Source: a virus. From it: 64,000 nt of DNA. Both the position numbers and the translations under genes were made by a program. Positions 7,881 to 21,262 of the stretch are shown here, in pieces (positions within the stretch are counted from its first letter, which is position 1; every line of letters begins with the position of its first letter). The notes under the pieces are model-generated. The model was given only the letters and a program-made list of their open reading frames with translations, made no database searches and was not told where the DNA came from. The stretch covers positions 25,066 through 89,065 of the IMG/VR virus record IMGVR_UViG_3300044712_001401; one strand, 5' to 3'.

Positions 7881-10088
7881 ATGTCGGATTTTTTAGCGGA
7901 CGCGCGACGCTCCGCGCGTTCGCGGGTGGAGATGGCTCGGCGGTCGTTTGGGCAGTCGCTGCGCAAGGCAACGAGCGGTGGCGCAGTTGTCGGCGACGCG
8001 TCCGAGCTTGGGCTCATGTCGTCGCTCGGAACGTCTGACGGATTCTCGTTTGGCGACAAAGGAGCGAGTCAAGCTCGACTCGCTCTGGCCGAGTTTCGGT
8101 CGTGGGTCTATGTCTGCGTAAACGCGATCGCGGGGCGTCTGTCGTCGCAACCGATGGTCGCCTGCCTTGTGTCGGACGACCAAAAGTCAAAGACGGGCAA
8201 GCGTAACTCGCGGCTTGACGTCACGCGGAAAAGAAAAGTTCCGGAATCGATTCGCGCGAAACTCCCAACCGCTTTCAGCATGGAGATTCTCACGAGCGGC
8301 GATATCGTCCGGACGTTAGAGCAACCCAACCCGGTGCAATCGCGCTCGCAGTTCTTGTACTTTTCGGCGGCGTCGCTGCTTTTGTGCGGAGAGTGTTATT
8401 GGGTCGCTGGGCTCGCAACTCCAGACGAAAGCGACCAGACGAGCGACGATGGGCCGCGCGTGGAATATTGGGCGATTCCGCGAACGTGGATCAAGCCATT
8501 GCATGAGGGGCGGTTATTTTCGGGCTACGAGTTGCGGACGAGCCCCAACGCCGAACCGATTTTGTTATCGTCTTCGCAGGTCGCTCGGACGTACTTTCCT
8601 GATCCGTCGGACATCCGCGCGTGTCGTTCTCCGCTCCAAGCCGTCGCAACGTCGGTGCGTGTTGACGACCGGCTCCAAGCGAGCCAAGAGCAAGCGTTCG
8701 ACCGTGGGCTCGATCCGAACCTAATCGTCACGGTGGGGCGGCTACGCGACGAGGACGGCAAGTTAGGTGATCGTCGTCCTCGTCTGACGGGGAGCCAGCG
8801 GCGACAATTGATTCGGGCCGTGCAGGAGGTCTGGGACTCGACGGTCAACGAGGGCTACCCTGCCATCGTCGACGGTTTCATTGAGTCGGTACACAAGCTA
8901 TCCAACACGCCATCCGAAATGGATTGGACCGAGTCGGGCGACGTAATCAAGCGGCGTATCTTTCAAGCGTTTCGCGTGAACCCCATCATCGTCGGGGAGA
9001 TTGTCGGAGCGAATCGCGCCCAAGTCGTCGAGGCGGAGAAGCATTTTTGCGCGAACGCTGTCAACCCCATCGCGTCGGCTCTCTCGGACTCTGCGGATCG
9101 GCTCTCGCGTTCGTTTTTCGAGGGCGGCTCGTCGACGCGTCTAACCGTATACGTCGAGCAGGCCGAGCCCACGGACCCGGATCTCGATACGCGGCGATGG
9201 GGCGACGCGCGTAAGCTGGGCGACGTAACGCGAGACGAGTATAGAGCCGAGCTATTGGGACTGCCACCACTTGAGGACGACAACGCCACGCGCAACACCC
9301 TACTATCGACCGTCGGCGGAATTACGGGCACGGTCCAGGTTGTCACGGCGGTCGGGCAAGGCATGGTGCGCCCCGAACAAGCCCAAGCGATGTTGGAGCT
9401 ATTTCTCGAAATTCCTCCGGACGTCGCGGGCCGAATTGCCGGCGTTGGGCAGGCTCCGATCCCGGCTCTGACGCCACCGAATCCGCCGGGCGGACCAGTG
9501 CCATCGCCAGCACCGCCAAAGCCGGCCGATCCGGTGGACGACAACGAGGAGCCACCGCTTGCCGAGGACGCTCCGCCGCAGCCGGACGAGTCGCAGGAGG
9601 CGTCGTATGTGGCTCGCTATGACGTCGTACCGCTCGCGCCGACCCAATCCATGCAAGACGAAGCGGCCGTCGGTCTGGGCTTGCTAGGCGAACGCACGGT
9701 GCAAGTTTCGTCGGGGCTGCTGTCGGTGGCTCGTCGTATTGCCGGCGGAGAGCGATTGCGGGCGATCGAGTGGCGATGGCTTCGCAGCTATCTCGCACGG
9801 TGCGGAAACGCTGGGCGCAACGAGCCGGGATGGAATCGCGACGAGGCATCTTGGCCGTCGTTGCCGGCGTTGCTCTGGACGTGTTGCGGCGGTGACGCGG
9901 CGTTCGTGCGGTCCTCGTACGTGTGCGCGTGTCTCGATACGGCCGACCGTCGCGAGGCAAAGCGGGAAAAGTTTGCCGGGGCGACGACGACGATTACGCG
10001 AGCCGACGTCAAGGCGCTCAATGCCTCGCAGCTCAACGCGTTGATTGGAGGGGCTGCCGACCAAATCGGTGGCACGTTTCAAGGCTAG
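7881..10088 (+). CDS. Portal protein (HK97 family)
   Basis: 735 residues from ATG 7881. Forms the dodecameric head vertex through which DNA enters and leaves. Recognised by the portal order: WVYVCVNAIAGRLSSQP, the FLYFSAASLLLCGECYW region, YWAIPRTWIKPL, the stem/crown segment QEQAFDRGLDPNLIV, and the C-terminal IFQAFRVNPIIVGEIVGANR. Longer than most portals: after about residue 520 there is a Pro-rich linker and a ~160-residue extension ending AADQIGGTFQG of unknown role. Head of the morphogenesis module; the next gene (MuF) overlaps by 20 bases. Confidence 0.92.
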   Translation: MSDFLADARRSARSRVEMARRSFGQSLRKATSGGAVVGDASELGLMSSLGTSDGFSFGDKGASQARLALAEFRSWVYVCVNAIAGRLSSQPMVACLVSDDQKSKTGKRNSRLDVTRKRKVPESIRAKLPTAFSMEILTSGDIVRTLEQPNPVQSRSQFLYFSAASLLLCGECYWVAGLATPDESDQTSDDGPRVEYWAIPRTWIKPLHEGRLFSGYELRTSPNAEPILLSSSQVARTYFPDPSDIRACRSPLQAVATSVRVDDRLQASQEQAFDRGLDPNLIVTVGRLRDEDGKLGDRRPRLTGSQRRQLIRAVQEVWDSTVNEGYPAIVDGFIESVHKLSNTPSEMDWTESGDVIKRRIFQAFRVNPIIVGEIVGANRAQVVEAEKHFCANAVNPIASALSDSADRLSRSFFEGGSSTRLTVYVEQAEPTDPDLDTRRWGDARKLGDVTRDEYRAELLGLPPLEDDNATRNTLLSTVGGITGTVQVVTAVGQGMVRPEQAQAMLELFLEIPPDVAGRIAGVGQAPIPALTPPNPPGGPVPSPAPPKPADPVDDNEEPPLAEDAPPQPDESQEASYVARYDVVPLAPTQSMQDEAAVGLGLLGERTVQVSSGLLSVARRIAGGERLRAIEWRWLRSYLARCGNAGRNEPGWNRDEASWPSLPALLWTCCGGDAAFVRSSYVCACLDTADRREAKREKFAGATTTITRADVKALNASQLNALIGGAADQIGGTFQG

Positions 10089-13035
10089 CGTCGAGCAGTT
10101 TGTCGCGAGATTCATTGCGGCGAACCCGACATTGACGAAGGGGAGCGGAGCAACTCAAGCGTCTCGGCTCGTAAAGATGTTCGACGCGAAATCGGCTCTG
10201 GCCGATCTGTCGCGGCGGTGCATTAATCCGCTCGCGTCAGCGTTCGCGACTGGGGCAATCGTCGAGCGTCGGCTACACCGCGCCGTTTGCGTTGATCACA
10301 AATCCGGCGTCAAGACGACGGCCGAGGATATCGCGAGACGGCTACAAATCGACTTGCCACCGGGGATTTCGATTGGGCAAATGCCGGCGTGGCTCCGCGC
10401 TCGCGCGGCCGAGATTATCCACCGGACGTTCCAGGAGCCCTATTGGCAGCGCATACCCGAGACGACTCGCGACGATATCGAAGTGACGCTCCGCAACTCG
10501 ATCGACGAGGGGCTCTCCGTCCGGGAAGTCTCGCGTCAAATCATGGAGCGACACGGGGACCAATACGACCGATGGCGATCCGTCAACGTCGCTCGCACCG
10601 AGATGACGAACGCGCTCAACGCCGGGCACGTCGAGGGGATTCGCCAGACGGCGCAAGAAACCGGCCTGCGAATTGGCAAGGAGTGGGTGAGCGTGCTCGG
10701 CACCACGACTCGCGAGACGCACGCGGACGCGGACGGGCAGCAGACACCGGACGCGGAGGGAAATTTTACATTGGCCGGCTACGAAGTTCCGTGGCCGGGG
10801 CACTGGTCGCTGCCAGCGTCCGAGCGTTGCCATTGTTTCCCGGCGGGTACTCTGGTGCGTTCTATCGGCTCAACGCAAGCCGTGATGCGGGCATGGTATG
10901 AAGGCGTTGTCTATGAAATTACGACGGTTGGCGGGCGGAGACTTTCCGTCACCGAGAACCACCCCGTACTTACCGCGAGTGGATGGGTCGCGGCTGGAAA
11001 GCTCAAGATAGGCGACCAGTTGTTCGCCACAACGAGACAAGTCGAGTCGTCCGTGGCGAATGAACAAATACAAGACGAACCAACCAGAATTGAGCAAATG
11101 TTCGAGGCGGCGCGAGAGCGATCCGTTTTTGGTTCCGGGGCGTCCGGCTACAAACTCCGCCGGTGCAGTCGTCGAGACTTCTACGGCGATGGGGAATTCT
11201 CGCAGGGCTATGTCGAGATTGTATTGATCGACAGCGACCTGCGTGCGGATCGTGAATCCGCAGCCGACAAGGTACGACGAGACCAAGACTTCTCGCGAGT
11301 AAACATTTACCTGCCGGAGTTGCTTCGTCATGGCGCGGCGGCGTCTTCGTTCAATCGGCTCAGTGGACAAGCGGCGAGCGTTCCAAGCGGCAGAAAGGAC
11401 GTCGTTAGCCAAAGCGGATCGGTCGTCGTCGTCGAGCCCCGACCAGCGGCTACGTTGCCCATCGGAGTACGAGCGGATTTTGCGGCCGTTGGCTCGCAAT
11501 CTTTCGGCGAGCCACGGACGACTCACCCCGTACCGTTCGGCGACGCGCTTAAGGTTCTCGCCTGCGTCGTAGTCGCGGATCATGTCGCTCAAATCGTCGC
11601 GGTCAAGTCGGCGTGTCACGTGTACGATCTCCAAACTGAAAGCGGCCTGATTGAGGCGGGCACTGGCAATGGTGGTGTAATCGTATCAAATTGTCAATGT
11701 AGCGTTATATCGTCCGTCGTCATGGACGAAATCTCCGACGAGCCAAAGCCGGAACCGACACCGGAACCGGAGCCGACGCCACCGCCGGCAGTCGAGCCAC
11801 CGCCGGCGCAAGAACCGCAGCCAATCCCGGCGTGGGAGCCTGGGACGATTCCGACGTCGGACCAACTCGGTGCGATGAGCTACGAGGAACTGCGGCGAGT
11901 GCCTGTCGAACACGTCGTTAACTTGCATCCCGAATTGAACGACGTACATCAGCGGGTATTGAAAGCGGCGGACAAGTTCGACCGGCTTGGCGGCGCACCG
12001 CCGAAGGCGAAGCTCGACAAAGCGGCCGAGGATTACAACAAGGCACACAAGAAGGTTTACGAGCTTGAAGCGAAATGGATGCAAGCCAACGAGCGAGGCG
12101 ACAAGGAAAAGGCGAAGGCGTTGATGGAAAAAATCGACGCGGCTGCGGCGAAGTTTGAGGCGGCGAAGACCAAGTACGCGGGGATGCTCGACAAGCGATT
12201 TAAGGCGAACGAGTTCAAGACACCGGAAGAGGCTCGGCGGTCTTTCCTGGCATCCGTGGGCGTTCCGAAAGGCGAGCGATTGAAAATCTACGGAGTTAAG
12301 GCTCCGATGCATCCGCCAGAATACCGCGTCAACTTGGAGGATGGCGGGTCCGTCGTCGTCCAGTTTCAGGATCAAAATATGCTGCGGACCAGCACCGGAG
12401 ATTGGGACCGCAATTCGCACGTTGGCCGACGAATTGAGGAGGCGAAAAACTTTGTCGAACCACTGATTGCGAAGCGTGGTGTCTTTGCGGAAAGCGAGCG
12501 AATTGCCAACGAAGTGGCGAACGTGCGGTTTCATCTTGGGGAGGAAGGCGTTCGCGCGCATGCGAAAGCTAAAGGGCACGACGTCACGAAATCAGATGCT
12601 CCAAACTATCGCGGTGTTTTTATCTCGCCGTCGGACGACGTGGGGACTGTGGTGCATGAGCTAGGCCACGTCATCGAAGGGGCTCGCGGCGACGGCATGA
12701 CCAAACGTGCCGAGGAGTTTCGGCAATATCGCACGGCGAAGACGCCAGACGTCCCGATGCGAAAGTACAGTCCGTTCTATTCCGAGTGGGAAATTGGCAA
12801 CGAAGATCGATTTCATGGGGTCTTCGATAGCGACGCCAAGCCGGGGAAGGTATATGATGAAAAAGACAACGTTGCGAGGCGTGCTGCGTACACCGGCAAA
12901 GGCTATGGAATGTATGGCACGGAGCTAACGTCGATGGGGCTCGAAGCGATGTATCGCGACCCGTATCGGCTCGCGAAAAACGACCCGGAGTTGTTCAAGT
13001 TCGTGATTGGGGTGTTGCGTGGAATCGTCGAGTAG
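10069..13035 (+). CDS. MuF-type minor head protein interrupted by an intein, with C-terminal metallopeptidase-like domain
   Basis: 988 residues as translated, about 702 after splicing. Extein: an N-terminal MuF/SPP1-gp7 domain (YWQRIPETTRDDIEVTLRNS; VNVARTEMTNALNAG) ending in the Cys-rich RCH|CQCSV, where the intein sits exactly in the conserved HxCxC cluster. Then a Pro/Glu linker, a helical segment, and a C-terminal domain with VVHELGHVIEGARG at residues 863-867, the zinc-binding HExxH, plus a downstream TELTSMGLEAM that could give the third ligand. MuF proteins are packaged head proteins, and C-terminal enzymatic domains on them are often delivered with DNA. Start GTG 10069 lies inside the portal gene; TTG 10045 is an alternative. 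Confidence 0.85.
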   Translation: MARFKASVEQFVARFIAANPTLTKGSGATQASRLVKMFDAKSALADLSRRCINPLASAFATGAIVERRLHRAVCVDHKSGVKTTAEDIARRLQIDLPPGISIGQMPAWLRARAAEIIHRTFQEPYWQRIPETTRDDIEVTLRNSIDEGLSVREVSRQIMERHGDQYDRWRSVNVARTEMTNALNAGHVEGIRQTAQETGLRIGKEWVSVLGTTTRETHADADGQQTPDAEGNFTLAGYEVPWPGHWSLPASERCHCFPAGTLVRSIGSTQAVMRAWYEGVVYEITTVGGRRLSVTENHPVLTASGWVAAGKLKIGDQLFATTRQVESSVANEQIQDEPTRIEQMFEAARERSVFGSGASGYKLRRCSRRDFYGDGEFSQGYVEIVLIDSDLRADRESAADKVRRDQDFSRVNIYLPELLRHGAAASSFNRLSGQAASVPSGRKDVVSQSGSVVVVEPRPAATLPIGVRADFAAVGSQSFGEPRTTHPVPFGDALKVLACVVVADHVAQIVAVKSACHVYDLQTESGLIEAGTGNGGVIVSNCQCSVISSVVMDEISDEPKPEPTPEPEPTPPPAVEPPPAQEPQPIPAWEPGTIPTSDQLGAMSYEELRRVPVEHVVNLHPELNDVHQRVLKAADKFDRLGGAPPKAKLDKAAEDYNKAHKKVYELEAKWMQANERGDKEKAKALMEKIDAAAAKFEAAKTKYAGMLDKRFKANEFKTPEEARRSFLASVGVPKGERLKIYGVKAPMHPPEYRVNLEDGGSVVVQFQDQNMLRTSTGDWDRNSHVGRRIEEAKNFVEPLIAKRGVFAESERIANEVANVRFHLGEEGVRAHAKAKGHDVTKSDAPNYRGVFISPSDDVGTVVHELGHVIEGARGDGMTKRAEEFRQYRTAKTPDVPMRKYSPFYSEWEIGNEDRFHGVFDSDAKPGKVYDEKDNVARRAAYTGKGYGMYGTELTSMGLEAMYRDPYRLAKNDPELFKFVIGVLRGIVE
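10834..11691 (+). other. Intein coding segment within the MuF gene
   Basis: 286 codons, residues 256-541 of the MuF precursor. Block A is CFPAGTLVRS with Cys1. Block B includes the TxxH element TENHPVLTASGWVAAGKL. Block F is CHVYDLQTESGLIEAG. Block G is GGVIVSN followed by Cys+1. The penultimate residue is Ser instead of the usual His, seen in some active inteins. Excision would join RCH to CQCSV and restore the MuF cysteine cluster. The sense strand shows no LAGLIDADG or HNH endonuclease; instead the opposite strand carries a long endonuclease-like gene across most of the element. Confidence 0.85.
10870..11619 (-). CDS. Putative Vsr/PD-(D/E)XK-type homing endonuclease encoded antisense inside the intein
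   Basis: 249 residues on the minus strand from GTG at 11619-11617. A Shine-Dalgarno GGAG (11632-11629) lies nine bases upstream, which makes a chance open frame less likely. Residues 5-50 form a helix-turn-helix (LKRVAERYGVSRPWLAERL). Residues 112-190 look like a Vsr/PD-(D/E)XK nuclease core: helix VLVSSYLVGCGF, strand TIRTQVAVDQYNLDIAL with D136, strand FPIAVEV with E147, then a basic helix and GWFVLYLFIR. It covers 750 of the intein's 858 bases. Its register places the catalytic PIAVEV codon-for-codon opposite the sense motif DFYGDG (11176-11193). Likely promotes intein homing; activity is inferred. Confidence 0.7.
   Translation of the reverse strand: MTRRLDRDDLSDMIRDYDAGENLKRVAERYGVSRPWLAERLRANGRKIRSYSDGQRSRWSGLDDDDRSALANDVLSAAWNARRLSTEPIERRRRRAMTKQLRQVNVYSREVLVSSYLVGCGFTIRTQVAVDQYNLDIALREFPIAVEVSTTAPAEFVAGRPGTKNGSLSRRLEHLLNSGWFVLYLFIRHGRLDLSRCGEQLVAYLELSSRDPSTRGKYGVVLGDGKSPPANRRNFIDNAFIPCPHHGLR
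11704..11731 (-). promoter_or_regulatory. Possible promoter for the antisense endonuclease gene
   Basis: On the minus strand TTTCGT (11731-11726), 16 bases, then TATAAC (11709-11704), about 85 bases upstream of the GTG start. The -10 is good and the -35 weak. The sense codons here (GTA, TCA, AAT, TGT, ATA) are unusually AT-rich for this genome, which fits selection for something other than protein. Confidence 0.3.
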
Positions 13036-15576: not shown

Positions 15577-15957
15577 ATGGCTCGGAACCGTTTGTCCGGA
15601 ATCAACGTGGCGCAAGTGGTGCGTTACGTTTTGCAGGCTCCCGTCGATTCTTTCGATGCGCTGTTTAACGCGGTCGAAGCGTCCATGCAGCGGCTCGGAG
15701 TTCCGTCGAATCGACGAGCACTTCGCGACGTCGGGCACGCGAGCGTCACGATCAACTTGCGTTCGGTGATCGCGTGGGCGGAGGCACTGCCGACGCCGAC
15801 CGAGGACAACCCGATTGCGACGGAGACCGTCGACGCGCTGGTGCAAATTCACGCGGCATGCTCGACTCGCTATCGGGCATCCGGATACACGGCGAAGAAG
15901 CCGTCGGCCGAGGACGTGGCAGCCGTAAACGATTTGGGCGAACGCCAAGGCGAGTAG
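15577..15957 (+). CDS. Hypothetical head-module protein
   Basis: 126 residues from ATG 15577 with TTAGGAG ten bases upstream. Mostly helical: VAQVVRYVLQAPVDSFDALF, ASMQRLGVPSN, then a region ending VAAVNDLGERQGE. It precedes the protease-ATPase fusion by 68 bases. Unknown function. Confidence 0.6.
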   Translation: MARNRLSGINVAQVVRYVLQAPVDSFDALFNAVEASMQRLGVPSNRRALRDVGHASVTINLRSVIAWAEALPTPTEDNPIATETVDALVQIHAACSTRYRASGYTAKKPSAEDVAAVNDLGERQGE

Positions 15958-16025
15958 ATGCCGGGCGAGCGTCGGTTCGGCTCCAAAAGTTGGGACGTCT
16001 GATTCGGGTCTGGAGGATTAACGCG

Positions 16026-18794
16026 ATGTCGATTCACGAACGGTTGGTGGAGTCGCTCAAGGCGCGAGCCGTGGCGCGCGCGGGCAAGTCGGCGAACGCG
16101 TTCGGCTATGGAATCGGTTTGGCCGAAGCGTACGTCGCTCGCGCGTTTGATGAGCTTGGCTTTGGCGAGACAATCGCAGGAGCCAAGCGAGCGGACATTC
16201 TCGCGGCATCGTCCGGCAAGTTGGTGTACTGCCAACCGGAACTGGAGATTTTCCGCAAGACGACGCGGTCCTCTCAATTTGCGGAGCTACTTCCGGACGG
16301 AATCAAAGCCCCAGACAACACGCTCTTGGTCTTTCAGAACGTGGTGACGACGCCACGCATCGATCGCGACAAAGACGTCTTGGAAACGTCTGGCGGAATG
16401 CTTGACCCGAAGGCTCCGCTGTTGTGGCAGCACCTATACAATCTGCCGCTCGGTCCGGTGCTCGCGACGATTGAGCACACCCCCAAGGCGCTCAAGGTCG
16501 CGTGCGCAATTGTCGACGTCAACGATCTCACATCGGACGCGGCGAAATTTGTGGAGGCGGGGGTGCTCCGTATCTCGCACGGATTCCGGGCGTTGGAGTG
16601 GGACCAGCGCAAGGCGGAGCCGGGGGACGCGATGGGCGAACCGGGCTATCACATCACCAAGTTTGAGATAATGGAAGTCTCGCTGGTTTCCGTTCCGTCG
16701 AACGTCGATGCCGTGATCGAGATGTACGCCAAGGGCTCGCTCTCGTCCGACGTCGCGAAGGCGTGGGCTCGCAAGTCGTACGATGCTCGCCATCGCTCGT
16801 GGCGCGGCGTGACGCTCGACGACGCGAGCCAGACGGCGGTGGCTCCGTCCGGAGTCAAGCGAGTCGTGATTGACGACGCGACGCCGGCGAACGAGACGGA
16901 AGAACCGGCAATCGACTCCGGCGATGTTGATTCGATTTGGGGCAAGTCAATTCCGGGCGGCGCGAAGGCGTTCGACGTCCAACGGCAAAACTTGGAGGCG
17001 TCGCGATTGGAGTACGAGTGGGTGTCGCGTTATCTCGGCACCGAAATCAAGAACGTCACGAGCCGGGACGAGCGAGCGTCGGGGGTGTGGGTCGGTACGT
17101 TCTTGTATGGCGTAGAGGAGGCGTTGGTTGGGCTCGACGCCAAGCAGGATGACTTGCGAAATCTGACGGACGACGGCAAGGAGATGCCACCCGAGTTTGC
17201 GCACGTCGAGCTAAACTCGAAAACGAGCCGCTCGTTCGTCGTCGAGGGGCTGCGTTTTTTTAAGACGGCTCGCGGACATCTGGTCGTCAAGACGTATCGG
17301 ACGTGGCACGGCGTTGGTGTCTGCGCCTATGCGGCGGATCAGCAACTCGCAACCGACGTCATCGATTCAGCGTGGGCTCTCGGGCATCAGAAAAATCTGC
17401 TGCGCTACGAGGCTTTTTCTCTGTCGGGTGAGTTCTTGCCGGCGACGTCCGAGAAGTTTGACGGCTTGTTTTTGACGCCGGAAAACGAGGCGTCAGTGAA
17501 GCGAATCGTCCGCTTGCTCAACGAGAAGGGTGGCGATCTGCCGAATCGCGGAATGATCCTGGCCGGACCGCCGGGGACTGGCAAGACGCTTTCCTCGCGA
17601 ATCGTGCGCAACGAGGCGAACGCGACCTTCGTTTGGATTGCGGCGCGGGACTTTTCGCGATTTGGTGCGTACGGAACCTTCGGGATGGCGTTTGATTTGG
17701 CAAAGGCTCTCGGGCCGTGCGTCTTATGTTTCGAGGACATCGATTCGTGGATCGACGGATACTCGGTCGACCTGCTCAAGACGGAACTGGACGGAGTCGG
17801 GCGTAGTCGTGGCATCGTTACGATGCTATCGACGAATCATCACCAGCGGTTGCCAAAGGCTCTCGTCGATCGGCCGGGGCGGTTCCATGACGTCTTGGTG
17901 TTTGATTTGCCGGACGACGCGACGCGCGCGAAAATGATTGAACGGTGGCTGCCGGAACTTCCGGACGAGTCGCGGGCGCGAGTCGTGGAGCAAACCAAGG
18001 GCTACGCCGGCGCTCATGTTTTCGAGTTGTGCTACTTTGCTCGCGTGCTCGGCGACGACGAGAAGATGGCGGTGGATGCGGCGGTCGATGTCGCGTTGAA
18101 AAAGATCTCGCAAGCCCGCGAATTGGTGGGAGCCAAGTCGGGCGAATCGCTGCAAGTCAAGGCGGCGCGTCCCGTGGCATACAAGCGGCTCGCGTTCGGA
18201 GTCAAGTCGGCGGAGACTCCGAGCGGCGTGGCCGAGGCGGCTCCGCCGCTACCGACTGCGGACGAGACGGTGCTAGACGGCTCCGCACGCGTCCCTGACG
18301 CGTCGAGCGGTGATCCGGGCGACGACACGGCAGAGCCAACCGAAAGCGGCGAGGCGGGCGACGGTGCGTCCGAGACAGGCGAACCGCTTGTCGGCACGTC
18401 GGGCGACCTGGAGACTCCGAAACAATCCGGCGCGAACGTGAGAAAGGCCGGACGCGTCTTGAGCGAAAAGAACTTGACCGCGCTCAAGGAGTGCCAACAA
18501 GACATGGAGCACGTCATCGACAACGAGGAGCTAAGCCGTTCGGGGCTCGCGTTGATGGAGCGGTGCGTGGACAGAATCAAAACGGTGATTTCGACGGCTC
18601 AACCGGAAGTTGGGCCGGTCGTGGACCCGGCGTTGGCCGGGCAGGCGAGTGCGGCGGAGTCGCTCTCGGCAAAGAGTGCGTTTTCGTTGGCGCTGACGTT
18701 GTCATCGAAGCAAGAGCGTCGGCGATGGCGAGCCGCTCTCGATTCGGTGGTGGCTCGGGACGAAGACGATGACGTTATGGCGGATTTGATGTAA
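16026..18794 (+). CDS. Prohead protease (S78-like) fused to an AAA+ ATPase and a scaffold-like tail
   Basis: 922 residues from ATG 16026, several times the usual ~200 of a prohead protease. Residues ~80-230 are the HK97-type serine protease: TTPRIDRDKDVLETSGG, WQH (H136), RISHGF (S184) and MEVSLVSVPSN (E217). Residues ~490-690 are a canonical AAA+ module: Walker A GPPGTGKT (514-521), Walker B VLCFEDID (566-573), sensor region LSTNHHQRLP, and RPGRF (616-620). The C-terminus (around 810-860) has GRVLSEKNLTALKECQ, resembling scaffold/delta segments behind phage proteases. The major capsid gene follows. It may couple protein unfolding or threading to maturation cleavage; this is inference, but the fusion itself is read directly. 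Confidence 0.85.
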   Translation: MSIHERLVESLKARAVARAGKSANAFGYGIGLAEAYVARAFDELGFGETIAGAKRADILAASSGKLVYCQPELEIFRKTTRSSQFAELLPDGIKAPDNTLLVFQNVVTTPRIDRDKDVLETSGGMLDPKAPLLWQHLYNLPLGPVLATIEHTPKALKVACAIVDVNDLTSDAAKFVEAGVLRISHGFRALEWDQRKAEPGDAMGEPGYHITKFEIMEVSLVSVPSNVDAVIEMYAKGSLSSDVAKAWARKSYDARHRSWRGVTLDDASQTAVAPSGVKRVVIDDATPANETEEPAIDSGDVDSIWGKSIPGGAKAFDVQRQNLEASRLEYEWVSRYLGTEIKNVTSRDERASGVWVGTFLYGVEEALVGLDAKQDDLRNLTDDGKEMPPEFAHVELNSKTSRSFVVEGLRFFKTARGHLVVKTYRTWHGVGVCAYAADQQLATDVIDSAWALGHQKNLLRYEAFSLSGEFLPATSEKFDGLFLTPENEASVKRIVRLLNEKGGDLPNRGMILAGPPGTGKTLSSRIVRNEANATFVWIAARDFSRFGAYGTFGMAFDLAKALGPCVLCFEDIDSWIDGYSVDLLKTELDGVGRSRGIVTMLSTNHHQRLPKALVDRPGRFHDVLVFDLPDDATRAKMIERWLPELPDESRARVVEQTKGYAGAHVFELCYFARVLGDDEKMAVDAAVDVALKKISQARELVGAKSGESLQVKAARPVAYKRLAFGVKSAETPSGVAEAAPPLPTADETVLDGSARVPDASSGDPGDDTAEPTESGEAGDGASETGEPLVGTSGDLETPKQSGANVRKAGRVLSEKNLTALKECQQDMEHVIDNEELSRSGLALMERCVDRIKTVISTAQPEVGPVVDPALAGQASAAESLSAKSAFSLALTLSSKQERRRWRAALDSVVARDEDDDVMADLM

Positions 18795-18853: not shown

Positions 18854-20455
18854 ATGAAGATTACCGCCGGCCTGAAAACTTGGGCCGTCTCGAAGGGGCT
18901 CGCGGAAAACGCGAGCGAGTTGCAAATCAAGCGGTGCGTGGCGGACGCGTTAGCGGACGGCTCGCTCACGCATGATGATTATTTGGCGTTGACGTCGGAC
19001 GCACCGAACGCCGGCGCGAAGGCGTTGCTGGAGCGAATCGCGTCCTCGTTGGAGAGCGGCGTCAAGCCGGCGGCTGCGGAGGCCGGCGCGATCAAGGGCA
19101 GCGTCGGAGGAGCCACGCCGGAACCGAAGCGGGCGAAGCCGAGCGCGTTTGAGCGGGCGTTCTCGACGGCCGATGGCGACGACGAGCCGGAGCGGGTCGT
19201 CATCGAAGTCGTGGGCGTGCACGAGCGCTACGACAACACCCGCAAGTCGGCTCGCTTTCCCGAGCGGACGATGAAGGGGGCGAAGCACTCGCGCGCCGGG
19301 CAACTGGTGACCGAAGGCGGCGACCGTGGCGTGCGCACGATCGAGGAGCCGTCGGAGTTGGATCTTGCGCTCTGCGGGGCGTACGTCAAATTCTCGATTG
19401 CGTCGCAACTGGGCGGCGTGAATCGGGTTCCTCGCCCGCTCCGTATGACGGAGCACGATTCGCAGCTCATGCAGTACGCGTTGGCGAAGGCCAAGTGGGG
19501 CGGCGTGCTCCACGGGGAGGGGACGGACGTCGAGGGAGCCATCGGCGTGAAGGGGGCTTTGCTCACGCCGAGCCAGCAAAAGGCGCTGATCGACGACGCC
19601 ACGAGCGGCGGTCTCGAAATCGCGCCGATCGCGTTCGACGACGCGGTCATCATGACTCCGCTTTTGTTCTCCGAGTTCTACCAGCGGGTGAACACGGTCC
19701 CCATCACTCGCGGCCGGCGCATCGAGGGCGCGTCGATGGGCAACGTCACGATCTCGGGGACGGGCGGCGACGATACGAACATCCCGCTGTTCAACACCGC
19801 GAGTTTCATCGCGGCGTTCGACACGACGATCTTTCCGGTCAACGGAGCGGTCGAGATTGGGCTGGATTTCATTTCCGATTCGCCAATCGACGTGGCGAAT
19901 ACGGTGGTGCGTCAATACGGAAACGTGTTGCTCGCGTGGCTCGACGAGCAGGTATGCATCGGCGACGGAACGACGGAGCCGGAAGGCGTGCTGAACGCGT
20001 CGGGGACGACGTCGGTGAACGCGGAGAACGGCGCGGGCGGTCCTCCGACTGTCGGCGATTACGAGAACCTGTTGTTCGGCGTGGCAAAGGCGTTCAAGGC
20101 GGGGACGAGCCCCGACCGGATCACGTTCGGCGCGAACGAAACGACGTACCAGCGGGCACGCGGGATCGCGGTTTCGACGACGGATCAACGCCGGGTGTTC
20201 GGGATGACGCACGAGGATTACGTGCTGTTGAACCGCACGTTCGGCATCGGCGAGTTCTTTACGAATCGCCAATCCGTCTTTGTGAACTGGGCTCGCTATC
20301 GGATGTATCGTCGGCTCGGCCTGACGATCAAGGTGACGACCGAAGGCTCGACGCTCACGCGTAAGAACCTGATGTTGCTCACCGCGCGTGCTCGCTACGG
20401 CGGACAACTGGAAGACGGTGGCGCGGCGGCCGTTTGCGCTGACGGGCAATCGTAG
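18854..20455 (+). CDS. Major capsid protein (HK97 fold)
   Basis: 533 residues from ATG 18854. Residues 1-~110 are helical and charged, like a scaffolding delta domain that the upstream protease would remove. The remainder shows a typical HK97 order: an N-arm, FPERTMKGAKHSRAG, the long spine-helix region YALAKAKWGGVLHGEGTD, EFYQRVNTVPITRGRRIEGA, a VCIGDGTTEPEGVLN loop (the family's gDGtg-P-Gil segment), and a C-terminal RRLGLTIKVTTEGSTLTRKN. The position after the protease and before a terminator supports this. Confidence 0.9.
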   Translation: MKITAGLKTWAVSKGLAENASELQIKRCVADALADGSLTHDDYLALTSDAPNAGAKALLERIASSLESGVKPAAAEAGAIKGSVGGATPEPKRAKPSAFERAFSTADGDDEPERVVIEVVGVHERYDNTRKSARFPERTMKGAKHSRAGQLVTEGGDRGVRTIEEPSELDLALCGAYVKFSIASQLGGVNRVPRPLRMTEHDSQLMQYALAKAKWGGVLHGEGTDVEGAIGVKGALLTPSQQKALIDDATSGGLEIAPIAFDDAVIMTPLLFSEFYQRVNTVPITRGRRIEGASMGNVTISGTGGDDTNIPLFNTASFIAAFDTTIFPVNGAVEIGLDFISDSPIDVANTVVRQYGNVLLAWLDEQVCIGDGTTEPEGVLNASGTTSVNAENGAGGPPTVGDYENLLFGVAKAFKAGTSPDRITFGANETTYQRARGIAVSTTDQRRVFGMTHEDYVLLNRTFGIGEFFTNRQSVFVNWARYRMYRRLGLTIKVTTEGSTLTRKNLMLLTARARYGGQLEDGGAAAVCADGQS

Positions 20456-20596
20456 TCGAAGCGGTCGCGGGCGTTGCTCGCGGCGACAAACTAGGCGAGG
20501 CGCGACCGTAGGTGTTGCGTCTCGCGTTCGAGTCTGGCACGATGCCGGGGCGAAAGCGCCGGGTTGCAGTTTTTCCGTCGGCTGCCTCACGGCGTT

Positions 20597-20628
20597 CCGC
20601 TCGGCATCATGCCGGGCGGTTTTCTTTT
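20597..20628 (+). terminator. Terminator downstream of the major capsid gene
   Basis: CCGCTCGGC (20597-20605) and GCCGGGCGG (20611-20619) pair over nine positions with a five-base loop, followed by TTTTCTTTT (20620-20628). It probably sets off high capsid expression from the decoration genes. It also argues that the next gene starts at GTG 20660 and not at ATG 20630. Confidence 0.7.
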
Positions 20629-20659
20629 CATGGCGACGGAGCAAGACGGAGAATCTTAC

Positions 20660-21262
20660 GTGGCAAACGAACCACAAAACACGTCGGCCGAGCAAGACCG
20701 GGCCGTGCGGGCTCGCAGTGGCGGGCCGGCGTTCGTCGTCGAGTTTGGCGACGACAACTGCCGGACGATTACGATTAACACGCTCAAGCTCCGAGTACGT
20801 GGGCGGTTCTCGTCATCGGTGCTCCACAAGCGGCCGATGGGCGGGCGAGATATGGGGCAAGCCATGAATCGGATGCCGGACATCCCTGGCATGCGATTGA
20901 GCTTTGACCCGCGAACCAAGACGTGTCGATTGTACGACCCGTTGGAGGCGGACAAGACGTTACTCGATCGCGTCAATTCAGCGGCGGAGGGCGTTCCGGC
21001 GATCATCAAGTCGGGCGGACGGTTTACGTTTGTGCCGGCGTCCGAGCATGACTTCTCAGACCCCGACCGGCTCAAGACGCTGCTCGTCGAGTTGCTAAAC
21101 AAGGTCGAGTCCGGTTCGTGCGTTGTGGTCGAAGGCGAGCTACCAACGCGGGACCAACTGACCAAAATTCCGGGACGTCGCCTGCACGATCCGTGGAATT
21201 CGTCGGCGACGAAGCCACGCTACTCGGACGAGGCGGAGGAAGCTCTCCACGCGGCGGAGTAG
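20660..21262 (+). CDS. Hypothetical protein after major capsid
   Basis: 200 residues from GTG 20660, preceded by ACGGAGA. Hydrophilic N-terminus, then strands (AFVVEFGDDNCRTITINTL) and a C-terminal helix-rich part (DRLKTLLVELLNKVESGS) ending in an acidic tail. Possible capsid accessory by position; no family recognised. Confidence 0.6.
   Translation: MANEPQNTSAEQDRAVRARSGGPAFVVEFGDDNCRTITINTLKLRVRGRFSSSVLHKRPMGGRDMGQAMNRMPDIPGMRLSFDPRTKTCRLYDPLEADKTLLDRVNSAAEGVPAIIKSGGRFTFVPASEHDFSDPDRLKTLLVELLNKVESGSCVVVEGELPTRDQLTKIPGRRLHDPWNSSATKPRYSDEAEEALHAAE

Follow-up and report, generated by a model that had tools for sequence, protein, structure and literature searches.

Inteins that carry a homing endonuclease are classically organized with the nuclease nested in frame and cotranslated. 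Such LAGLIDADG and HNH inteins share with the locus described here terminal HINT blocks, insertion at a conserved cysteine motif, an associated nuclease and a patchy distribution. Other systems resemble it in part. In myxomycete group I introns the homing endonuclease lies antisense to the host gene, as does I-DsqI, for which activity has been demonstrated (PMC9548176). A phage insertion with an HNH endonuclease hidden in another frame is, like our locus, open in the host frame, and spreads by homing. The Vsr-like I-Bth0305I/EDxHD homing endonucleases (PMC3943268) combine a nuclease with HTH-type DNA-binding modules, and genes of the MTES_1575/DUF559 type (Pfam) encode the same fold with conserved D, E and R positions.

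The locus also departs from these systems. Its predicted nuclease is a separate, opposite-strand protein outside the translated intein, and the nuclease gene extends over the N-splicing block, the linker and some of the C-splicing block, unlike the in-frame nucleases of LAGLIDADG and HNH inteins. I-DsqI belongs to a ribozyme intron in rDNA, whereas here both strands are protein-coding over about 250 codons. The HNH-carrying phage insertion uses another frame, with antisense coding not described, and is without an intein splicing domain, and those MTES_1575/DUF559 genes that we checked lie outside inteins, as ordinary genes with a fusion to AbiEi-type domains. We interpret the locus, located in a window of 64,000 nucleotides (the whole stretch of viral DNA that was analyzed), as a mobile intein for which the complementary strand of the same DNA supplies the homing endonuclease gene, and assign this reading a probability of about 0.88. 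Its features are as follows.

10045 to 13035, + strand: host ORF, MuF-like minor head protein split by the intein (Pfam Phage_Mu_F, 1e-9; PHROG head proteins)
10834 to 11691, + strand: intein, 286 aa (Pfam Intein_splicing, 4e-7), with C1 at 10834-10836 and the terminal N at 11689-11691
10834 to 11043, + strand: N-terminal splicing (HINT) segment in the AlphaFold model, carrying block A and block B (TENH, its His encoded at 10960-10962)
11176 to 11193, + strand: sense motif DFYGDG, of the family DF[HY]GDG, under constraint on both strands and complementary to antisense PIAVEV
11251 to 11553, + strand: sense linker, residues 140-240, predicted to be disordered (pLDDT 34-58)
11554 to 11691, + strand: C-terminal splicing segment, block F (HVYDL) and block G (VSN/C), from pLDDT of 84-98 and alignment
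10870 to 11619, − strand: antisense homing-endonuclease-like gene, 249 codons (conserved family, codon test and fold)
11629 to 11632, − strand: Shine-Dalgarno GGAG, complement of CTC-C in sense VYDL-Q, kept in most loci
11617 to 11619, − strand: GTG start codon at a conserved site, complementary to the sense His that precedes block F VYDL
11491 to 11601, − strand: N-terminal helix-turn-helix, residues 7-43 (Pfam HTH families; AlphaFold helices 7-18, 23-30 and 34-43)
10954 to 11298, − strand: predicted PD-(D/E)XK nuclease domain, residues 108-222 (fold, profile and conserved residues)
11290-11292, 11212-11214, 11179-11181 and 11107-11109, − strand: conserved nuclease residues E110, D136, E147 and R171, respectively

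By its junction residues, HINT blocks and fold, the + strand from 10834 to 11691 is an intein, and it is predicted to splice. It is inserted in MuF at CHC/CQC (the slash marking the insertion point), and its terminal Asn codon is followed in frame by the C+1 codon at 11692-11694, giving an N/C downstream junction. The HINT blocks recognized are TENH (block B), VYDL (block F) and VSN/C (block G). The intein ends align across 78 nonredundant loci, solved inteins top the Foldseek match list for the sense intein, and AlphaFold modeled its residues 1-70 with a pLDDT of about 89-98. These data bear out the proposal, made in an earlier note on this DNA, of a continuous + strand intein at the MuF cysteine cluster. 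The penultimate intein residue is Ser, where His is usual. An in-frame sense endonuclease was considered and rejected, as the sense linker is disordered in the AlphaFold model; the complement of this linker encodes much of the nuclease gene.

The antisense gene runs from a GTG at 11619-11617 to a last codon at 10873 and a stop codon at 10872-10870, thereby spanning 87% of the intein, and a GGAG lies nine bases upstream of the GTG, at 11632-11629; the earlier note had given this same frame and the same signals. The mirror alignment that it had seen is likewise exact: antisense codons and sense codons pair one to one as reverse complements, PIAVEV and DFYGDG being complements at 11176-11193, and all 91 of the first 91 homologous loci combine this register with an open sense frame. 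The antisense frame is, by sequence comparison, far beyond chance. Antisense stop codons numbered 0 where 533 were expected, a count from which no p-value was drawn because the open frame itself had defined the overlap. Both the Shine-Dalgarno and the start codon are conserved, and both lie within the complement of block F of the intein. Specifically, ATG or GTG occupies the exact start site in 57 of 78 nonredundant loci, about a quarter having no start there, and the block F Leu codon opposite the Shine-Dalgarno shows a synonymous excess of CTC (z = 7.4 and 10.7). Annotation hardly ever records the antisense gene: of the annotated records that we inspected, a single one shows it as anything other than MuF or "hypothetical."

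A search for sigma-70 promoters upstream of the antisense start found nothing convincing, the sole promoter-like site lying inside the ORF. This result, together with a decayed copy in locus L192 and a broken one in L109 (an unverified record), would fit a fossil endonuclease, formerly mobile, whose expression has been lost and whose gene is decaying in most phages. We consider this very unlikely, given the conserved start and Shine-Dalgarno and the antisense purifying selection evident even between the close relatives L104 and L105 (see below).

The antisense protein was modeled by AlphaFold with a pLDDT of 91 as a helix-turn-helix plus a PD-(D/E)XK nuclease, whereas the linker obtained by reading the same DNA in sense reaches only 34-58. 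Its best structural match in the PDB is I-Bth0305I (probability 0.99), followed by Vsr (0.93), in agreement with the helix-turn-helix and Vsr/PD-(D/E)XK nuclease that the earlier note had recognized. PDB sequence matches to 8cws, 8cwy, 5cwb and 7mwr were discarded, these being designed helical proteins that match the helix-turn-helix. Compared with I-Bth0305I/EDxHD enzymes, the antisense protein has its helix-turn-helix at the N terminus and a conserved set of E, YN-D, VE and R; a His at the candidate EDxHD column, in a motif placement of our own, is present in 27 of 64 family members and not in the window. A profile search with the family matched 3hrl (1.2e-5), the I-Bth0305I/EDxHD group is a profile match as well as a structural one, and 45 of the 64 members match Pfam MTES_1575. 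The window protein by itself gave weak matches in Pfam, PHROGs and NCBIfam and stayed below the Pfam thresholds (MTES_1575, E = 0.2), so the nuclease assignment of this copy comes through the family profile. The acidic residues are conserved in nearly every one of the 154 sequences (E110 in 148, D136 in 153 and E147 in 153). Thus, the antisense protein is a predicted PD-(D/E)XK/Vsr-like nuclease.

With the antisense protein as query, tblastn at E ≤ 0.01 retrieved 110 GenBank phage records, the best at 2e-21; in the same records the sense intein reached 2e-15 at best, a weaker match. Antisense relatives were also found on 256 IMG/VR contigs. When inteins were instead collected with nothing but the sense N-terminal splicing block, all of the best 80 carried the antisense family, 79 of them at E < 1e-6. 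The decayed copy in L192 is among these 80; its nuclease frame is broken and its intein frame open, and its antisense stops are accompanied by loss of the greater part of the linker. These searches show the arrangement to be conserved across many phage lineages, in over 150 sequences from phages and prophages. Family alignments were required: when viral contigs were searched with single sequences (the window, Salmonella and Gordonia proteins), either nothing or only near-identical copies came back. A full-length nonoverlapping homolog was sought, and every full-length match examined lay antisense in inteins; ordinary nonoverlapping homologs contain the helix-turn-helix or the nuclease domain only, those with the nuclease being DUF559/MTES_1575 genes.

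To compare selection on the two frames, we used the sense protein to align 20 separate pairs. In the overlap core, sense-changing but antisense-silent differences outnumbered the opposite kind 623 to 195, compared to 100 versus 699 in the N-extein; third-position wobble shifts onto the antisense strand in the core. Antisense identity exceeded sense identity in 19/20 pairs in the core and in 0/20 in the exteins, and the close relatives L104 and L105 differ by 18 versus 4 such changes in the overlap and 1 versus 52 outside it. The catalytic residues are fixed in antisense, while the sense residues opposite alternate through antisense-silent changes: sense Val (99) or Ile (54) faces D136, and E110 is encoded by GAA (76) or GAG (72), giving Phe or Leu in sense.

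The DF(H/Y)GDG motif, which the earlier note had taken as a possible mark of a conserved antisense gene, is real in phage inteins but is constrained in the sense frame too, and therefore its conservation alone does not establish the antisense gene. Opposite its His, 58 of 63 Val codons are GTG, versus 21% at other antisense Val codons, and this His-preserving bias led us to reject the motif as a pure antisense shadow. Such sense constraint, which extends to the block B Thr, is what a mirror-frame artefact would draw on, in which only the sense intein is selected and the facing codons make the antisense frame seem open and conserved; sense Leu and Ser codon choice can also avoid antisense stops in this register. 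However, the substitution pattern is reversed inside the gene and normal again in the exteins, the catalytic columns are antisense-fixed while the sense drifts, the confident nuclease fold comes from the antisense strand only, and nonoverlapping ordinary homologs exist, leaving such an artefact the least credible of the explanations weighed. Both frames are, on these alignments, under purifying selection, antisense-dominated in the core and acting on both strands in the splicing blocks, and the sense intein cannot account for the codon-level conservation in the overlap. The points on which the earlier proposal could have failed thus came out in its favor, with homologs existing outside this DNA and a nuclease fold predicted. 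Its central claim, that one segment is both splicing element and antisense mobility nuclease, is supported by homologs, fold and codon test, with expression and cutting as its conjectural part.

Intein-region DNA of Escherichia coli phage Snoke and Salmonella phage sidste is 96.0% identical, compared to 66.8% for the N-extein, and intein-free relatives exist both of Snoke (90.9%) and of Pseudomonas aeruginosa CF23a-type phages (phi297, 97.4%). Other host genes of such inteins encode dCMP deaminase, UDG-PolA and RecA, several of them unrelated. The empty alleles and the intein/extein divergence mismatches support horizontal spread, and the distribution suggests that the antisense nuclease probably mediates it by homing. 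Alternatively, the nuclease could be real but serve phage–phage competition, attack on host DNA or another task, for its fold is a prediction and its ordinary relatives are AbiEi/DUF559 genes without a known role. We judge this unlikely: the gene is present in all of the 80 best sense-ascertained inteins, accompanies the intein as it moves among phages that infect different hosts and lies in inteins that interrupt several unrelated host genes, its closest structural match is a homing endonuclease, and a PADLOC search for defence families returned no match to the protein.

For the mobile intein that we propose, the sense strand would be translated within MuF, and the terminal HINT segments would excise the intein and join the exteins into the CHCQC motif. 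On the antisense strand, a separate Shine-Dalgarno and start codon would direct translation of a protein of 249 aa, in which a DNA-binding helix-turn-helix is combined with a PD-(D/E)XK domain resembling those of Vsr and I-Bth0305I. At the insertion site of MuF alleles lacking the intein, this nuclease would make a cut, and repair of the cut allele would copy in the intein with both genes. We infer from sequence that the antisense gene is transcribed and translated in the phage, and likewise infer protein splicing, DNA cleavage and the target site.

The locus seems, on balance, to represent an old and widespread class of phage intein, in which a homing endonuclease lies antisense and in mirror register over the splicing DNA, with its ribosome-binding site opposite block F and its active site opposite a functional DFHGDG, and we lean toward the view that a two-strand, self-contained mobile element of this kind has not previously been described. 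The intein architecture is new, with priority uncertain beside a 2025 preprint by Gosselin, Arsenault and Gogarten (doi 10.1101/2025.01.02.630785), a survey of actinobacteriophage inteins that reportedly notes a "non-canonical architecture" and probably includes the Gordonia MuF inteins. To our knowledge, this is among the clearest cases of two long proteins on opposite strands of one DNA, with sequence diversity sufficient for constraint to be measured codon by codon. Because splicing and mobility sit on separate strands, expression of the nuclease need not be tied to that of the structural gene. The arrangement may explain the many phage inteins that seem endonuclease-free or have an unassigned linker, and it opens to test how an antisense homing gene comes to be expressed and how a single DNA segment accommodates two proteins.

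Re-examination of the window, which is taken from a viral record with a total length of 89,065 bases, bore out all coordinates and sequence statements of the earlier note, which had described a homing endonuclease-like gene running antisense across an intein in a MuF gene. The features of the locus are:

7881-10088: portal gene (Pfam Phage_portal, 1e-27), preceding the MuF-like gene
10045-13035, + strand: MuF-like minor head gene (Pfam Phage_Mu_F, 1e-9), interrupted by the intein
10834-11691, + strand: intein within MuF, with C1 at 10834, the N at 11691 and C+1 at 11692
11619-10870, - strand: antisense frame of 249 codons, opening with GTG at 11619 and closed by a stop at 10870; GGAG lies nine bases upstream of the GTG

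Splicing would restore the MuF Cys motif CHC-QC. The frames lie in mirror register: the codons of the two strands pair one to one as reverse complements, with antisense position 1 opposite sense position 3. Towards its C-terminus (12600-13035), the MuF ORF carries a VVHELGH motif, whose sequence suggests that MuF is fused to a domain resembling zinc metallopeptidases. Adjoining the capsid gene, one ORF (15774-18794) unusually combines a prohead protease (Peptidase_S78) with an AAA ATPase domain (Pfam 3e-14). A 581-codon frame on the - strand (18950-20695), antisense to the major capsid gene (18854-20455), had no Pfam match and, at high G+C, is probably open by chance.

The earlier note had let its proposal depend on relatives of the antisense protein outside the window, and these were found in 110 GenBank phage records (tblastn, E<=0.01; best E 2e-21) and, with an 11-member profile, in 256 encoding IMG/VR contigs, 80 of which were retrieved. 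The GenBank matches covered >=80% of the query in 102 of the 110 records, at about 25-33% identity; for the P. aeruginosa records among them, the sense intein as query gave 2e-15. The matches came from phages of Salmonella, Gordonia, Pseudomonas, Escherichia, Vibrio, Cronobacter, Mycobacterium, Rhodococcus, Aggregatibacter and Idiomarinaceae and from a Chloroflexota plasmid-borne phage, and the annotation of most matching stretches reads MuF/head or hypothetical protein. The sense frame was open in the identical mirror register in 91/91 loci collected by that stage. Among the records inspected, that of vB_StyS-sam (NC_073177.1, 1745-2146 of the locus) alone annotates any of the antisense gene, as a "hypothetical protein" (ORF43).

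Structure prediction and Pfam searches supported the nuclease assignment. The AlphaFold model of the antisense protein (64 members; mean pLDDT 91) comprises an HTH of three helices at the N-terminus, a linker that is also helical, and a core ordered helix-strand-strand-strand-helix-strand. Its best Foldseek PDB matches were the catalytic domain of the homing endonuclease I-Bth0305I (probability 0.99) and Vsr (0.93), with modest E-values of about 0.01-0.04, and its matches among viral models were endonuclease-like, DNA mismatch endonuclease and DUF559 proteins. Separately from structure, sequence profiles matched 3hrl (1.2e-5), I-Bth0305I (1.9e-5 with a smaller profile, 0.0044 with a larger one) and, weakly, Vsr, and 45/64 family members matched Pfam MTES_1575. 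Ordinary, single-strand-encoded bacterial genes share this nuclease domain. The His of EDxHD nucleases is present in 27/64 members and absent from the window protein; we therefore regard the protein as a Vsr/I-Bth0305I-like nuclease and do not file it as an EDxHD member. The sense model of the same DNA matches solved inteins, with confident HINT ends, fairly confident residues 80-131 and a disordered linker at residues 140-240 (pLDDT 34-58).

Selection on each strand was compared in 20 separate locus pairs, with the sense protein guiding the alignment. For sense positions 1/2/3, the N-extein gave difference frequencies of 0.347/0.287/0.524 and the overlap core 0.428/0.197/0.306. Among codons that changed by a single base, the ratio of sense-silent, antisense-changing cases to the reverse class was 699:100 for the N-extein and 195:623 for the core (binomial p 7e-53, for sites that are not fully independent). 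Identity was higher in antisense than in sense for 19/20 cores and 0/20 exteins, and one pair (L104/L105) gave ratios of 52:1 outside the overlap and 4:18 within it. Where the antisense gene covers splicing blocks, both strands are constrained. Among 154 aligned antisense sequences, D136 is Asp in 153 (GAC 99, GAT 54), so the opposite sense residue is V in 99 and I in 54; E110 is Glu in 148 (GAA 76, GAG 72), which places F/L opposite; and R171 is Arg in 149, opposite a sense residue that varies among A/S/T/L/P.

So that the antisense gene played no part in selecting inteins, for an independent ASCERTAINMENT we searched IMG/VR with an alignment restricted to 73 residues of the sense N-terminal splicing region and took the best 80 of at least 600 matching stretches, a similarity-ranked sample rather than a census that shares some contigs with the antisense-found set. 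The antisense profile matched all 80 inteins, 79 of them with E<1e-6. The exception, L192 (2216-3052), is a shortened intein that lacks most of the antisense nuclease core and has two stops in the antisense frame, with the sense frame open and its EFHGDG motif kept, as expected if the nuclease can be lost and the splicing element retained.

The antisense active-site segment, (P/A)-V/I-A-V-E-V, is encoded opposite the sense motif DF(H/Y)GDG (window 11176-11193), which lies in the confidently predicted sense segment (residues 80-131), beyond the classical HINT blocks. The V of this segment is GTG in 58/63 Val codons, compared to 21% elsewhere, so that the sense His is retained. This preference, together with the persistence of EFHGDG in L192 after nuclease loss, indicates that the motif is selected on both strands.

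Translation signals are likewise embedded in the sense frame. Read on the opposite strand, the codon just before VYDL (intein block F) is the antisense start, and the Leu codon CTC with the next C is the Shine-Dalgarno sequence. ATG or GTG stands exactly at the conserved start position in 57/78 non-redundant loci, mostly with GGAG, GGAGG, GAGG or AAGG 8-9 bases upstream. CTC was used at the block F Leu in 45/56 loci, against 13.5 expected from same-gene usage, and in 36/50 of the sense-ascertained set, against 13.8.

Queries of joined flanks recovered many intein-free alleles. An E. coli phage that lacks the intein is 90.9% identical to Snoke in the extein, and phi297, also intein-free, is 97.4% identical to the extein of the P. 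aeruginosa CF23a type. Between Snoke and Salmonella phage sidste, identity was 96.0% in overlap DNA versus 66.8% in the N-extein, and in the L059/L082 pair 84% versus 45%; the overlap is not always the better conserved (L001/L099, 89% versus 94%). Other hosts of the element are a dCMP deaminase, UDG-PolA fusions, a RecA-like protein and a Mu portal-MuF fusion. The dCMP deaminase (Pfam 5e-11) of virus Rctr197k (KX853510.1, 2165-3517 of the locus) carries an antisense-nuclease-type intein at its PC..C motif and is annotated as a "putative head morphogenesis protein," apparently a misannotation caused by the intein. In two loci (L080 and L144), a phage UDG domain is fused to a family A DNA polymerase (UDG 3e-26 and DNA_pol_A 2e-50 in L080), with the intein inside the UDG part.

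Antisense homing genes with demonstrated activity are known in myxomycete group I introns (PMC9548176), and a phage methylase insertion carries an out-of-frame HNH gene without an intein (PMC11855218). The literature searched, with incomplete coverage, yielded no account of an intein with its endonuclease encoded antisense; PMC11855218 cites a 2025 preprint (10.1101/2025.01.02.630785) about inteins of actinophages with non-canonical architecture, which may overlap with this finding. Our data establish that two conserved genes overlap, that the antisense one has translation signals and a predicted nuclease fold, and that the element has empty alleles and has moved horizontally. In the mechanism we infer, an antisense transcript would give rise to the nuclease, which would cut intein-free alleles, and repair after cutting would copy in the whole intein.
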